NCBI GenBank assembly: GCA_019752335.1
Contig: JAIEMJ010000023.1
Coordinates: 248,001-312,000, forward strand
Length of the DNA stretch: 64,000 bases
Reading direction: 5' to 3'
DNA from: Bryobacteraceae bacterium
GTDB taxonomy: Bacteria > Acidobacteriota > Terriglobia > Bryobacterales > Bryobacteraceae
Of the stretch, positions 32,649-50,664 are shown piece by piece; the first letter of the stretch is position 1; the number at the start of each line of letters is the position of its first letter. The notes beneath the pieces were generated by a model. The model worked only from the letters and a program-made list of their open reading frames with translations, was not told the DNA's origin and did not search any database. The position numbers and the translations under genes were made by a program.

Positions 32649-32794
32649 GCCACTTCCGCCTTTTCACACCCAAGTCAAAAAAACAGCCCACGGGCGCACG
32701 ATGATTAGCATAACCGATAGGCGCCGGCCTTCCGCTAACATGATTGCCAAAAATTGTTTTGGGCCAAGCCTATGATATCGTGAACGTCGAGCGC

Positions 32795-34030
32795 ATGACA
32801 TCTTCCCGCCGTTGGACAATTATTGGCCTGCTCTGCGTAGGCTTCATGGTGGCCTACTTTGACCGCGTCAATCTCTCGGTTGCCGTCACTGACCCCACCT
32901 TCCAAAGCCACTTCCATCTGAGTAAGGAAGAGCGGGGGCGGCTGCTGTCCGCTTTCTTCGTTTCCTATACGCTGCTCCAGATTCCCGCCGGCTGGTTTGT
33001 CGACAAGTATGGCGTGAAGATTCCCTACGCGGCCGGCTTCCTGGTTTGGAGCCTGATGTCGGCGGCGACGGCCTGGGTGGGCAACTTCTCCCAGCTCCTG
33101 GGACTGCGCTTATTGCTCGGCGTCGGCGAGAGCCTGAATACCCCGGCCGGCATGCGCTGGATCCGCTTCAACGTGCCCGAAAGTCAACGCGGACTGGTGG
33201 TAGGGATCTACATGGCCGCGGCCAAGGTAGGTCCCGCCATCGGCACGCCCATTGCCGGCGGTTTGCTGGTGAGCTACGGCTGGTCGAACATGTTTCTCAT
33301 CATCGGGCTCGGCTCCTTGCTGTGGCTGATCCCATGGCTGCTCCTGGTGAAGGATAACGACCGCGAACTCGAGGCCGCCGTGCAAAAGAAGGCGGGGGGC
33401 TCGAACCTGAGCTTTTGGGACACGCTGATGAGCCCCGTGATGCTCGGCACCATCATTGGCACGTTCTGCTATCAGTACTTCGTCTACTATTGCCTGACGT
33501 GGCTGCCTTCCTACTTCGCCGAGCAGCGCGGATTGAACGTCAGCAAGAGCAGTTGGTTCACCGGCGCCAGCTTCGGCGGCATGGCCATCGTCGCCATTCT
33601 GGCCGGCTGGTGGGCGGACCGGCTGATCGCCCGCGGCGCGGACCCCGTCACCATCCGCAAGCGCTTCATCATCGCCGGCTTCCTGGTCGCCAGCACCGAA
33701 ATCCTGGGCGCTTATTCGAGCTCCATTGAGGTGGCGCTCTTCTGGAGCATCTTCTCGCTCTCCGGCCTGGGACTCACCACGGCCAATTACTGGGCCCTCA
33801 CCCAGACGCTGCTTTCGAGCGCGGCCGTCGGACGCGTGGTGGGTGTGCAGAACGCTGCCGCCAATTTGCCTGGCGTCGTCGCGCCCTGGCTTACCGGCTA
33901 TCTGCTGACGCAAACCGGCAGCTACACCGCGCCCATGTACTCGATTCTTTTCTTCCTCGCCATGGGCGTAGGCGCTTATGTCTTTCTGGTGAAGCGCGAG
34001 TACGCGCCATCGGGAGCGCAAGCCGGATAG
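32795..34030 (+). CDS. MFS transporter, anion:cation symporter (hexuronate/galactonate) type
   Basis: Major facilitator of 411 residues with 12 predicted helices. Helix 1 contains YFDRVNLSVA, the mark of the ACS family that takes up sugar acids such as hexuronates and galactonate; R-x-G-G-like loops follow. ATG 32795 is the family-like start; GTG 32780 would add five residues. The gene ends directly at the paired-hairpin element at 34031. Confidence 0.85.
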   Translation: MTSSRRWTIIGLLCVGFMVAYFDRVNLSVAVTDPTFQSHFHLSKEERGRLLSAFFVSYTLLQIPAGWFVDKYGVKIPYAAGFLVWSLMSAATAWVGNFSQLLGLRLLLGVGESLNTPAGMRWIRFNVPESQRGLVVGIYMAAAKVGPAIGTPIAGGLLVSYGWSNMFLIIGLGSLLWLIPWLLLVKDNDRELEAAVQKKAGGSNLSFWDTLMSPVMLGTIIGTFCYQYFVYYCLTWLPSYFAEQRGLNVSKSSWFTGASFGGMAIVAILAGWWADRLIARGADPVTIRKRFIIAGFLVASTEILGAYSSSIEVALFWSIFSLSGLGLTTANYWALTQTLLSSAAVGRVVGVQNAAANLPGVVAPWLTGYLLTQTGSYTAPMYSILFFLAMGVGAYVFLVKREYAPSGAQAG

Positions 34031-34131
34031 CCCGCCGCGTAGGTGGCGGGGCAACGTTCCGGCGCTTTTCCCGAAAACCCCCACAAAACAGGCGTATTCA
34101 GGGCACTTTGCCCCATCGCTGACGCGATGGG
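34031..34131 (+). repeat. Paired-hairpin intergenic element, copy A
   Basis: Two 8-bp stems 61 nt apart: stem 1 CCCGCCGC-GTAG-GTGGCGGG (34031-34050) and stem 2 CCCATCGC-TGAC-GCGATGGG (34112-34131). The spacer holds GGGGCAACG-, CGAAAAC and CAAAACAGGC- like blocks that recur in copy B (49121-49219). It begins at the base after the MFS stop codon. Stems differ from copy B by compensatory changes. Confidence 0.7.
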
Positions 34132-34188
34132 CTGTCCGGGTTTCCCGAGCCCAGGGACATTTTTCTGGGCAATCCGTTGCGGAATCGT

Positions 34189-34701
34189 TTATAGGCTCGG
34201 CAGGGCCGCGCGTAGCTTGGCCAAGTCGTCGGCGTCGGCCGAATCGTAGAAGCCGCGGATGCGCATCTCGCGGTCGACGAGAATCATGCGCGTGGAATGG
34301 GTGAGGTCAGCCTCGATGTCGCCGACCTTGAAGACGTTGCGGCTGAGAACGTTCAATTGCTCCTTGGGGCCGGTGAGAAAGGTCCAACGGGCCGGATCCG
34401 CCTGGTAACGGCGCCCGTACGCGGCGAGGACTTCGGGGGTGTCGCGAGCCGGATCCACGGTGAACGAAACCAGGCGAGCCTGCGACTGGAGCTTTTTCAT
34501 TTGCGTGCTCATGCGCAAACACGGGCCGGGGCAGTGCGTGAAGATGAAGTCCGCAATCCAGACTTGGCCTTTCAGGCTTTCGCTTGAAAACGCCTGCCCG
34601 TTCTCCGCGGTCAGCGTGAAAGCAGGGACGTCGTAGAGCACGGGCAGTTCCGGCGTCCGGTGGCAGGAGGTGAGGAGCAGGAGAAGAAAGAGCCGCTTCA
34701 T
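34189..34701 (-). CDS. SCO1/SenC-family lipoprotein
   Basis: Copper-metallochaperone-like thioredoxin fold of 170 residues for assembly of the CuA site of cytochrome oxidase. A lipobox ends at Cys13 (LLLLTSC). The CxxxC copper motif THCPGPCLRM and the distal His in DLTHSTRM are present. It overlaps the ABC ATPase gene by ATGA and is the last gene of a ctaA-ctaB-ABC-sco operon. Confidence 0.9.
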   Translation of the reverse strand: MKRLFLLLLLTSCHRTPELPVLYDVPAFTLTAENGQAFSSESLKGQVWIADFIFTHCPGPCLRMSTQMKKLQSQARLVSFTVDPARDTPEVLAAYGRRYQADPARWTFLTGPKEQLNVLSRNVFKVGDIEADLTHSTRMILVDREMRIRGFYDSADADDLAKLRAALPSL

Positions 34702-48311: not shown

Positions 48312-49097
48312 ATGAGCGTATTTAAGGATCGTATCTTAGAGGGCCGCGTGGCCTTCCTCACCGGCGGCACCAGCGGCATCGGCTTCGGCGTGGCGCGGAT
48401 GCTGGCCGCACAGGGCGCGCGCGTGATGCTGAACGGGCGCAACCCGGAGAAGCTCGCCGCCGCAATCGCCGAAATTCGCGCCGCGGGCGGCGAAGCCGAT
48501 GGCGTCGCCGCCGACGTCCGCAACTACGACGCCATCGCCGCCGCGCTGGCGCAGTGCCGCGCGCAATGGGGCCTCATTGATATTTTGCTCTGCGGCGCGG
48601 CGGGCAACTTCCCCGCCCCGGTTACGGGCATGAGTGCGAACGGCTTTAAGGCCGTGATGGACATCGACGTCCTGGGCACGTTCAACGCCTGCCGCGCCGC
48701 GCATGAGCATCTGCGGGCGCCGGGAGCTTCGGTGGTGGCCATCTCAGCGAACCACGCAAGCGTCGCCTACGCGATGCAGGCGCATGTCTGCGCGGCCAAG
48801 GCGGGCGTCGAGCGGTTGCTGCAGGTGCTGGCTCTCGAGTGGGGTCCGCAAGGCATTCGCTGCAATCTGGTGAACCCGGGTCCGATTGACGATACCGAAG
48901 GCATGCGCCGCCTGGCGCCGACGCCCGAGGCGCGCGCGATGTCGGTGAAGAGCGTCCCGCTGGGCCGCTTTGGCACGAAGGAGGACATCGCGAATCTGGT
49001 CCTTTTCCTGTGTTCGGAAGCCGGAGCGTACTGCAACGGCGGCGTCTTCGTCTGCGACGGCGGCCAAGCCCTGATGGGCGCCCGCGCGATGGGCTGA
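48312..49097 (+). CDS. 2,4-dienoyl-CoA reductase-like SDR
   Basis: SDR of 261 residues with TGGTSGIGFGVA and CGAAGNF. The active-site block HVCAAKAGVERLL and LEWGPQGIRCNLVNPGPI-DDTEGMRRL match peroxisomal/bacterial 2,4-dienoyl-CoA reductases (DECR type), where the usual YxxxK Tyr is missing. Expected role is the NADPH reduction of polyunsaturated acyl-CoA. The paired-hairpin element B lies 24 bp downstream. Confidence 0.8.
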   Translation: MSVFKDRILEGRVAFLTGGTSGIGFGVARMLAAQGARVMLNGRNPEKLAAAIAEIRAAGGEADGVAADVRNYDAIAAALAQCRAQWGLIDILLCGAAGNFPAPVTGMSANGFKAVMDIDVLGTFNACRAAHEHLRAPGASVVAISANHASVAYAMQAHVCAAKAGVERLLQVLALEWGPQGIRCNLVNPGPIDDTEGMRRLAPTPEARAMSVKSVPLGRFGTKEDIANLVLFLCSEAGAYCNGGVFVCDGGQALMGARAMG

Positions 49098-49120
49098 GCC
49101 GAAGAGTTGAACCCGAGGAG

Positions 49121-49219
49121 CCCACCTCGTAAGAGGTGGGGCACCGCGGTCACTTTCTCGCGAAAACATTAGCAAACACGGCATAATTTGAGGACTAACC
49201 CCGCCGCTCGCGCGGCGGG
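49121..49219 (+). repeat. Paired-hairpin intergenic element, copy B
   Basis: Stem 1 CCCACCTC-GTAA-GAGGTGGG (49121-49140) and stem 2 CCCGCCGC-TCGC-GCGGCGGG (49200-49219), 59 nt apart. Spacer blocks GGGGCACCG, CGAAAAC and CAAACACGGC recur in copy A at 34031-34131. Same orientation and same place as A: downstream of a plus-strand gene. Confidence 0.7.
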
Positions 49220-49281
49220 CTAGAGCCATGCGGGCCTGTTTTTTGCTGAACCTCTGACGATAGCGTAAACTCTTAGGGAAC

Positions 49282-50664
49282 ATGCCAAAAACAGTTTCCC
49301 TCGCCCGCCAACTCGGCCTGGCCAGCGCTACGGCGCTCGTCGTCTCCAACATGGTGGGCACGGGCATCTTCACCACCACGGGCTTTCTGGCGGGCGACTT
49401 GGGCTCCGTTCCGCTGGTGCTGCTGATCTGGTTCGTTGGCGCCTTGGTAGCCTTGGCAGGAGCTTTCTGCTACTCCGAACTTGGCGTAAACTTCCCCAGT
49501 TCCGGCGGCGAATACGTTTACCTCACTCAGGCGTATGGCCCGGTGTGGGGCTTTATGACGGGCTGGATCTCTTTCATCGCGGGCTTCTCCTCGCCCATCG
49601 CGGCGGCCTCGCTTGCCTTCTCCAGCTATCTCGGCTACTTCTTCCCCGCGCTCAAGGACTCGGCCCCGTTTTTCACCATCGGTGGCGCCCTCCGTTTTGG
49701 CCCCGCCGAGGCCGTTGCCTGCGCCCTCATCCTCGCCATGACCCTGGTCAATCTGCTCGACCTCAAACTGGTCTCCAGCCTGCAAAACCTCTTCACCGGC
49801 TTCAAGATCGGCCTGCTACTGCTACTCTGCGCCGCCGGCTTCCTGGCGGGCACGGGCGACTGGGGCCATTTCTCTCAAACCGCCGTCCGGACCTCCTCCA
49901 GTTCGGTCTGGGCCCAGTTCTCGGTAAGCCTCTGCTTCATCTACGCCAGCTATAGCGGCTGGAATGCCGCCACCTATGTCGCCGAGGAAGTCGAGAATCC
50001 GGCCAAGACACTGCCCCGGGCGCTCGCGTTGGGCACGGCGATCGTAGCCTTGCTCTATCTCGCGATGAACATGCTCTTCATTTACGCCATGCCGCTTGAA
50101 CAGATGAAGGGCACCGTTGCCATCGGTTCCACCAGTGCCGCGAAATTGTTCGGGCCCGGCATCGCGGGCACGTTCGCCGCGCTGATGGCTATCGCCCTGT
50201 TCTCGACGGTGAATGCGATGGTCACCATTGGGCCGCGCGTCTACTACGCCATGGCCAAGAATCGCGCCTTCTTCACCTTCGCCGGCGTGCTCTCCGAACG
50301 CACGCGGACGCCCATCAACGGCATCCTGGTGCAGTGCGTCTTTGCCATGCTCGTCACCATGACGCCCTTGCCTTCGCTGATGCTCTTCATCGGCTTCACG
50401 CTGAACATCTTCACGGTAATCACCGTCGCCTCGCTATTCTTTTTCCGGAGCAAGCCGCATTGGCAAAAGCTTCCGGTCGTGAGCTTCGCCTGGCCGCTGT
50501 TCCCCGTCTTCTACATCATCGTCGGACTGTGGATCGCCTACTTCGGCCTAACCATGGAACCGAAGATGTCCTTCACCGCCTTCGGCATCATCGCCCTGGG
50601 AGCGCTCGTCTATCACTTCCGCATCAAGGACGGCGTCGCGGCCCACGCCGCGGCCAAAGGTTAG
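49282..50664 (+). CDS. APC-family amino acid permease
   Basis: Membrane transporter of 460 residues with 12 predicted helices. The family substrate-binding loop NMVGTGIF sits in helix 1, and FCYSELGVNFPSSGGEYVYL in helix 3 is typical of the LAT-like APC group. Substrate not assigned. folD begins 3 bp after its stop. Confidence 0.88.
   Translation: MPKTVSLARQLGLASATALVVSNMVGTGIFTTTGFLAGDLGSVPLVLLIWFVGALVALAGAFCYSELGVNFPSSGGEYVYLTQAYGPVWGFMTGWISFIAGFSSPIAAASLAFSSYLGYFFPALKDSAPFFTIGGALRFGPAEAVACALILAMTLVNLLDLKLVSSLQNLFTGFKIGLLLLLCAAGFLAGTGDWGHFSQTAVRTSSSSVWAQFSVSLCFIYASYSGWNAATYVAEEVENPAKTLPRALALGTAIVALLYLAMNMLFIYAMPLEQMKGTVAIGSTSAAKLFGPGIAGTFAALMAIALFSTVNAMVTIGPRVYYAMAKNRAFFTFAGVLSERTRTPINGILVQCVFAMLVTMTPLPSLMLFIGFTLNIFTVITVASLFFFRSKPHWQKLPVVSFAWPLFPVFYIIVGLWIAYFGLTMEPKMSFTAFGIIALGALVYHFRIKDGVAAHAAAKG

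Follow-up and report, generated by a model that had tools for sequence, protein, structure and literature searches.

Paired hairpins in a Bryobacteraceae genome belong to a new REPIN family most likely served by a class-3 Y1 transposase

Two intergenic segments in a 64,000-nt stretch of a Bryobacteraceae bacterium genome (hereafter the window; contig JAIEMJ010000023.1, positions 248,001 to 312,000) each carry a pair of 8-bp hairpins whose stems differ between the copies while the bases remain paired, raising the question of whether selection acts here on a structured RNA or on mobile DNA. The initial annotation, which entertained both readings, was correct as to coordinates, stems, 4-nt loops, spacers (61 and 59 nt), the one G-U pair in copy A and the conserved blocks between the stems (Table 1). 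It counted two stems per copy, and both are present, but one is the same unit in inverted orientation and not a different stem. With its context, stem 1 of copy A reads ATAG-CCCGCCGC-GTAG-GTGGCGGG-GC, and stem 2, taken from the opposite strand, reads ACAG-CCCATCGC-GTCA-GCGATGGG-GC. Stem 2 is therefore the stem 1 unit on the other strand, and the two stems are two subtypes of a single palindrome. Scanning the window for this unit returned the four hairpins of copies A and B plus one weak chance match.

Table 1 Parts and neighbours of the two window copies (window coordinates).
Feature	Position	Strand	Remark
MFS transporter gene, left of copy A	32744..34030	+	stop codon TAG abuts hairpin
CGGA at copy A, fits CnGA foot	34024..34027	+	3 nt outside REP unit A1 hairpin
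Copy A, REPIN/BIME-like, two inverted REP units and internal spacer	34029..34133	+	100.3 bits, model R1
REP unit A1 hairpin, CCCGCCGC-GTAG-GTGGCGGG	34031..34050	+	
Copy A internal spacer, 61 nt	34051..34111	+	conserved GAAAAC and AAAACnG blocks
REP unit A2 hairpin, inverted, CCCATCGC-GTCA-GCGATGGG	34112..34131	-	
CGGA, CnGA foot of REP unit A2	34135..34138	-	
SCO1/SenC family protein gene, right of copy A	34189..34701	-	convergent
Short-chain dehydrogenase gene, left of copy B	48312..49097	+	
CCGA, CnGA foot of REP unit B1	49113..49116	+	4 nt outside B1 hairpin
Copy B, REPIN/BIME-like	49119..49221	+	90.1 bits, model R1
REP unit B1 hairpin, CCCACCTC-GTAA-GAGGTGGG	49121..49140	+	
Copy B internal spacer, 59 nt	49141..49199	+	
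REP unit B2 hairpin, inverted, CCCGCCGC-GCGA-GCGGCGGG	49200..49219	-	
Amino acid permease gene, right of copy B	49282..50664	+	

The initial annotation had staked its proposal on further copies, and many were found in the same genome, which rules out a chance resemblance. Used as a DNA query, copy A gave 49 matches in the 7.2-Mb assembly. A covariance model built from 23 full copies gave 152, and a two-stem covariance model gave 100 at E ≤ 0.001 (both strands and overlaps counted in each case). When 0.71 Mb surrounding these hits was scanned without bias, 131 units were recovered, and the 134 units of the first scan were distributed over 84 places, comprising 40 single, 40 double and 4 larger arrangements. 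Overall, the genome contains about 130 units in at least 84 places. Neighbouring units were arranged head-in in 44 of 51 pairs, with spacings of mostly 77-82 or 50-51 nt (head-in pairs mostly within 50-82 nt). Several contigs of this draft genome (C6, C29, C24 and C45 of G000) start or end inside a copy or less than about 100 nt from one, so the repeats probably broke its assembly. We also noted a tmRNA gene (L025:996-1347) and a TPP riboswitch (L012:1791-1898) within a few hundred nt of a REPIN copy.

Each unit spans ~30 nt and consists of NNAG, an 8-bp stem, a GTNA loop and a GC tail, often with CnGA ahead. This foot is seen in copies A and B, and on both sides of copy A. Only a third of the units (44 of 128) have it at exactly -7 to -4 relative to the hairpin, compared with ~3 per background position (~15-fold). 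Stems fall into at least six self-complementary types: ATCGC (n = 53), GCCGC (n = 41), ACCGC (n = 10), ACCTC (n = 9), ACAGC (n = 2) and GCCTC (n = 1). Stem pair 4 is G-C in 45 units and A-T in 72, pair 5 is C-G in 69 and T-A in 55, and pair 7 is G-C in 117 and T-A in 12. Across the many copies, 98.4% of cells in the local hairpins were paired versus 95.6% in shuffles, and none of 500 shuffles did as well, which bears out the stem covariation first noticed in the two window copies.

Compensatory changes at four stem pairs, together with a position just downstream of stop codons and a 26.3-bit match of one hairpin to the Rfam family RF01687 (Acido-Lenti-1), are what a structured regulatory or small RNA (an sRNA or a 3'-UTR element) under RNA selection has in its favor. 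Such selection would favor G-U pairs on the transcribed strand, whereas a single-strand DNA hairpin needs no such bias. Among stem mismatches, G-T was not significantly commoner than A-C (14 versus 8, P = 0.29, a low-power test), and on the sense strand of the nearest upstream gene the counts were 9 G-U and 8 A-C, again with low power. Palindromic units with their stem subtypes account for the covariation, either orientation is seen and some units form arrays, a search of 36 relatives did not extend the family beyond one species, and every Rfam match to the element lay below the gathering score. Nor does pairing between the units behave as a conserved structure: although the minimum-energy fold of copy A pairs REP1 with REP2 into one whole-element hairpin, we rejected that hairpin because its pairing does not covary (89.5% paired versus 89.3% shuffled). 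The covariation is thus real, but a property of each local hairpin and without RNA-strand bias, and for this reason recognition at the DNA level accounts for it better than a functional RNA. The proposed selection on an RNA was not upheld, and we regard an RNA function as very unlikely.

Most units (126 of 134) lie outside called ORFs, and they are closer to gene 3' ends (median 63 nt) than to 5' ends (median 204 nt). In a sample of gaps chosen around copies, with genes called by a simple script, the element was present in 39 of 72 convergent gaps compared to 32 of 257 others (odds ratio 8.3, P = 1.5e-12). Both window copies follow plus-strand genes in the same orientation, as the initial annotation stated, but this does not extend to the genome, where either strand may carry the element and convergent genes border 39 of the 71 intergenic gaps with REPs; copy A itself sits between convergent genes. 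The preference for convergent gaps is what would be expected of intrinsic or bidirectional transcription terminators that look alike, an explanation we consider highly improbable: no T-run follows the hairpins, no intrinsic terminator was called at those of copies A and B, and a conserved 60-nt spacer and loop, flanked transposase genes (see below) and absence from relatives are not expected of terminators. Other REPs likewise favor convergent gaps and gene 3' ends (PMC3733652).

In about 8 of the 84 places, the unit's own TAG appears to serve as the stop codon of the upstream gene, giving a sharp spike at distance 1. Examples are G000:C6:262320, C1:242119 and copy A, where the AG of unit A1 (34029-34030) completes the stop codon of the MFS gene (34028-34030). 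REPs placed just after stop codons in E. coli can stall ribosomes, and genes whose stop codon is a REP TAG may be translated less.

The element is restricted to one species among the genomes searched: the two-stem model gave no match in any of 36 relatives, G001 of the same genus among them. A comparison with this sister species revealed an empty site. At G000:C32:17531, a 75-nt element separates a gene's stop codon from the start of the gene that follows. It sits within an insertion of ~110 nt that is absent from G001, where the two genes abut. Some 15-20 nt beyond each REP differ as well, and the ends are therefore not fixed to the base. Copies A and B are also absent from G001, but their sites are not clean empty sites because gene order is disrupted around A and the place of B is taken by different genes. 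Synteny breaks relative to G001 were seen at five of the six REP places examined in L149, L131 and the locus of window copy A, and L112 showed one clean empty site and one break. Rearrangement mediated by REPs could have caused these breaks, or breaks and REPs may simply share a location in convergent gaps and at contig ends. Copy A is 10-28% divergent from the other full copies, so the mobility of the element may be old.

A candidate partner enzyme is encoded outside the window. The genome holds 20 Y1_Tnp loci above the Pfam cut-off, one of which is an intact gene for a 160-aa Y1 (HuH) protein, P0001 (C53:9525-10004), with a REP unit on each side, one of them some 10 nt from the start codon. 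The two flanking units share one orientation, an arrangement also shown by the end hairpins of IS200/IS605 elements. Two frameshifted relics of this gene (G000:C4:36980-37449 and C15:161064-161446) also have REP units within 1.5 kb; the C4 relic has seven units in about 1.2 kb. No unit lies within 1.5 kb of any of the other 17 Y1_Tnp loci (3/3 versus 0/17; exact P = 1/1140, calculated by hand), which represent several further Y1 groups (L031-L040, L042-L045 and L047-L049). P0001 matches PF01797 and carries HVH at 83-85, Y141 and Q146 (the Y----Q motif) and conserved T6, Y10 and G11. It scores below the NCBIfam cut-off for IS200 transposases (40.5 versus 55 bits). Its predicted structure (pLDDT 79) matched IS608, ISDra2 and TnpA-REP (4er8) at E ~3e-4 or better, the resemblance to 4er8 being one of fold only, with modest TM-scores (~0.5).

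These associations also bear on whether the element might be a MITE of a DDE-type insertion sequence, its palindromic units serving as terminal inverted repeats. Inverted ends around a conserved interior, a non-autonomous character and one empty site would fit. However, both ends form hairpins in their own right, with a loop that is conserved, units often stand alone (40 of 84 places), and the units flank a Y1 rather than a DDE transposase gene, with both flanking units in the same orientation; we judge a MITE origin to be extremely unlikely. By contrast, the initial suggestion of a mobile REP-like element is borne out by the high dispersed copy number, the inverted doublets, the empty site and the cognate REP-flanked Y1 gene.

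What kind of REP system this is can be read from its closest counterparts. Class 3 Y1 proteins are a small class with a Y----Q motif, an extended N-terminal region and a 155-aa profile (Quentin et al. 2018, PMC6006769). They were reported from Acidobacteria, Planctomycetes and Proteobacteria with hairpins that have a CnGA foot, reach ~600 copies in Solibacter usitatus and were called weak and atypical (PMC6006769). The system described here likewise combines a short protein (160 aa, HuH and Y----Q, with N-terminal conservation) with flanking 5' CnGA-foot hairpins in high copy number. Because the foot and these features match, we file it as a new REP/BIME (REPIN) family of the 'class 3 TnpA-Y1' REPtron kind described in 2018, an assignment made from the published features rather than from the published class-3 profile. 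It departs from class 3 as published in its mostly perfect 8-bp stem, its GTNA loop, a foot that usually lies 3 nt outside the hairpin and a transposase on a separate, well supported branch.

More distant systems share parts of this organization. The intergenic inverted REP doublets of ~100 nt resemble the REPINs/BIMEs of Pseudomonas and E. coli, whose spread is ascribed to a Y1 transposase (RAYT) flanked by the same REPs (PMC3116915, PMC8266576). Compared with the RAYT REPs (TnpA-REP), the foot here is CnGA-like, not GT[AG]G, and P0001 reaches 26 bits against the cut-off of 80 for REP_Tyr_transpos, the NCBIfam model of REP-associated transposases. A canonical GTAG REP (class 2 TnpA-REP) was considered and rejected, the units having NNAG at this position and GTAG in only 6 of 134. 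The TIRtrons/TIRYT of Acidobacteria also have Y1 genes flanked by repeated inverted sequences, but those sequences are described as long terminal inverted repeats that bear no relation to GTAG REPs (Di Nocera et al. 2013, PMC3733652).

Relatives of P0001 numbered 125 in the genome collection, and the best 80 of these were kept; they come mainly from Acidobacteriota and Planctomycetota, with Legionella and others also represented. A word of at least 15 nt was common to the two flanks of the gene at 49 of 74 homologue loci, compared to 7% of mismatched controls. The commonest flank repeat is CCGAGCCGCGACCGTNAGGGAGCGG, which we read as CnGA followed by a stem with internal mismatches and a GTNA loop. 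Class-3 Y1 genes from Acidobacteriota, Planctomycetota, Legionella and one Desulfococcaceae genome have this repeat in their flanks (loci including L226, L230, L240, L247, L274, L288 and L293). In G021 the repeat, a palindrome distinct from that of the window, flanks the homologue and recurs at about 40 sites; the same query gave none in either of two further genomes, G009 and G053. Among the best 80 of 125, the closest relatives of P0001 are L219-L221 (43-46% identity in the best segment), and in a tree made solely from relatives found in this analysis they form a clade with P0001 (support 100/97), all having AG-8bp-GTNA hairpins; L219 carries CGGACAGCCC, as does the window genome. Relatives of the enzyme thus come with palindromes of their own and, judged from these sequences, REP hairpin design follows the transposase tree.

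The Rfam family Acido-Lenti-1 (RF01687; PMC2864571) deserves separate comment. The first of its hairpins, on the complementary strand, reads TAG-CCC-N5-GTNA-N5-GGG, which is the design seen here, and the family too is a palindrome dispersed in many copies in Acidobacteriota genomes; it has a second hairpin (CGCCCCTCCGGGGCT) that the window element lacks. Units scored 23-28 bits (best 28.2 in sampled loci), short of the gathering score of 37 bits. A search of 20 class-3 loci from other species yielded no hit to RF01687 at E ≤ 0.5, and 30 of the best Acido-Lenti-1 copies had no Y1 gene next to them. Given the sub-threshold scores, the absence from class-3 loci and the lack of an adjoining Y1 gene, we do not claim that the two are the same family. 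Likeness to RF01687 was noted at L300-L329 and at window positions 34112-34141. Of 200 genomes of the class, 98 had matches to the family above the cut-off, and often every one of the ~29 candidates scored was a match. On its sequence features, Acido-Lenti-1 may be a DNA repeat rather than an sRNA.

Taken together, we put the probability at roughly 90% that the element is a REPIN/BIME, a ~75-105-bp piece of non-autonomous mobile DNA with two inverted REPs that is most likely served by a class-3 Y1 transposase. The REP would most likely be recognized as a single-strand DNA hairpin by the 160-aa HuH/Y1 enzyme encoded on C53, which would nick at or near the foot tetranucleotide, the presumed cleavage site, and rejoin the strands. 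The doublet would thereby be copied into intergenic sites, presumably by single-strand transposition, and copies would persist chiefly in convergent gaps and behind stop codons.

A wider reading, which we hold tentatively and at slightly short of even odds, is that class-3 Y1 enzymes make up a widespread REP system and that each enzyme lineage has its own hairpin, so that hairpin and enzyme would have diversified together. The perfect 8-bp GTNA hairpins found here would then mark one branch, and Acido-Lenti-1 would be a related or convergent DNA repeat wrongly classed as an sRNA. The enzyme-hairpin pairs found in relatives offer material for the study of recognition and co-evolution, and the rare class-3 Y1 proteins gain a defined, testable substrate family with natural stem variants. 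The hairpin pairs of the window add one more example to a known kind of bacterial repeat and are not a new RNA. That a covarying structure with the look of an RNA is explained as what is likely a transposase's DNA signal is a warning for RNA discovery based on covariation.
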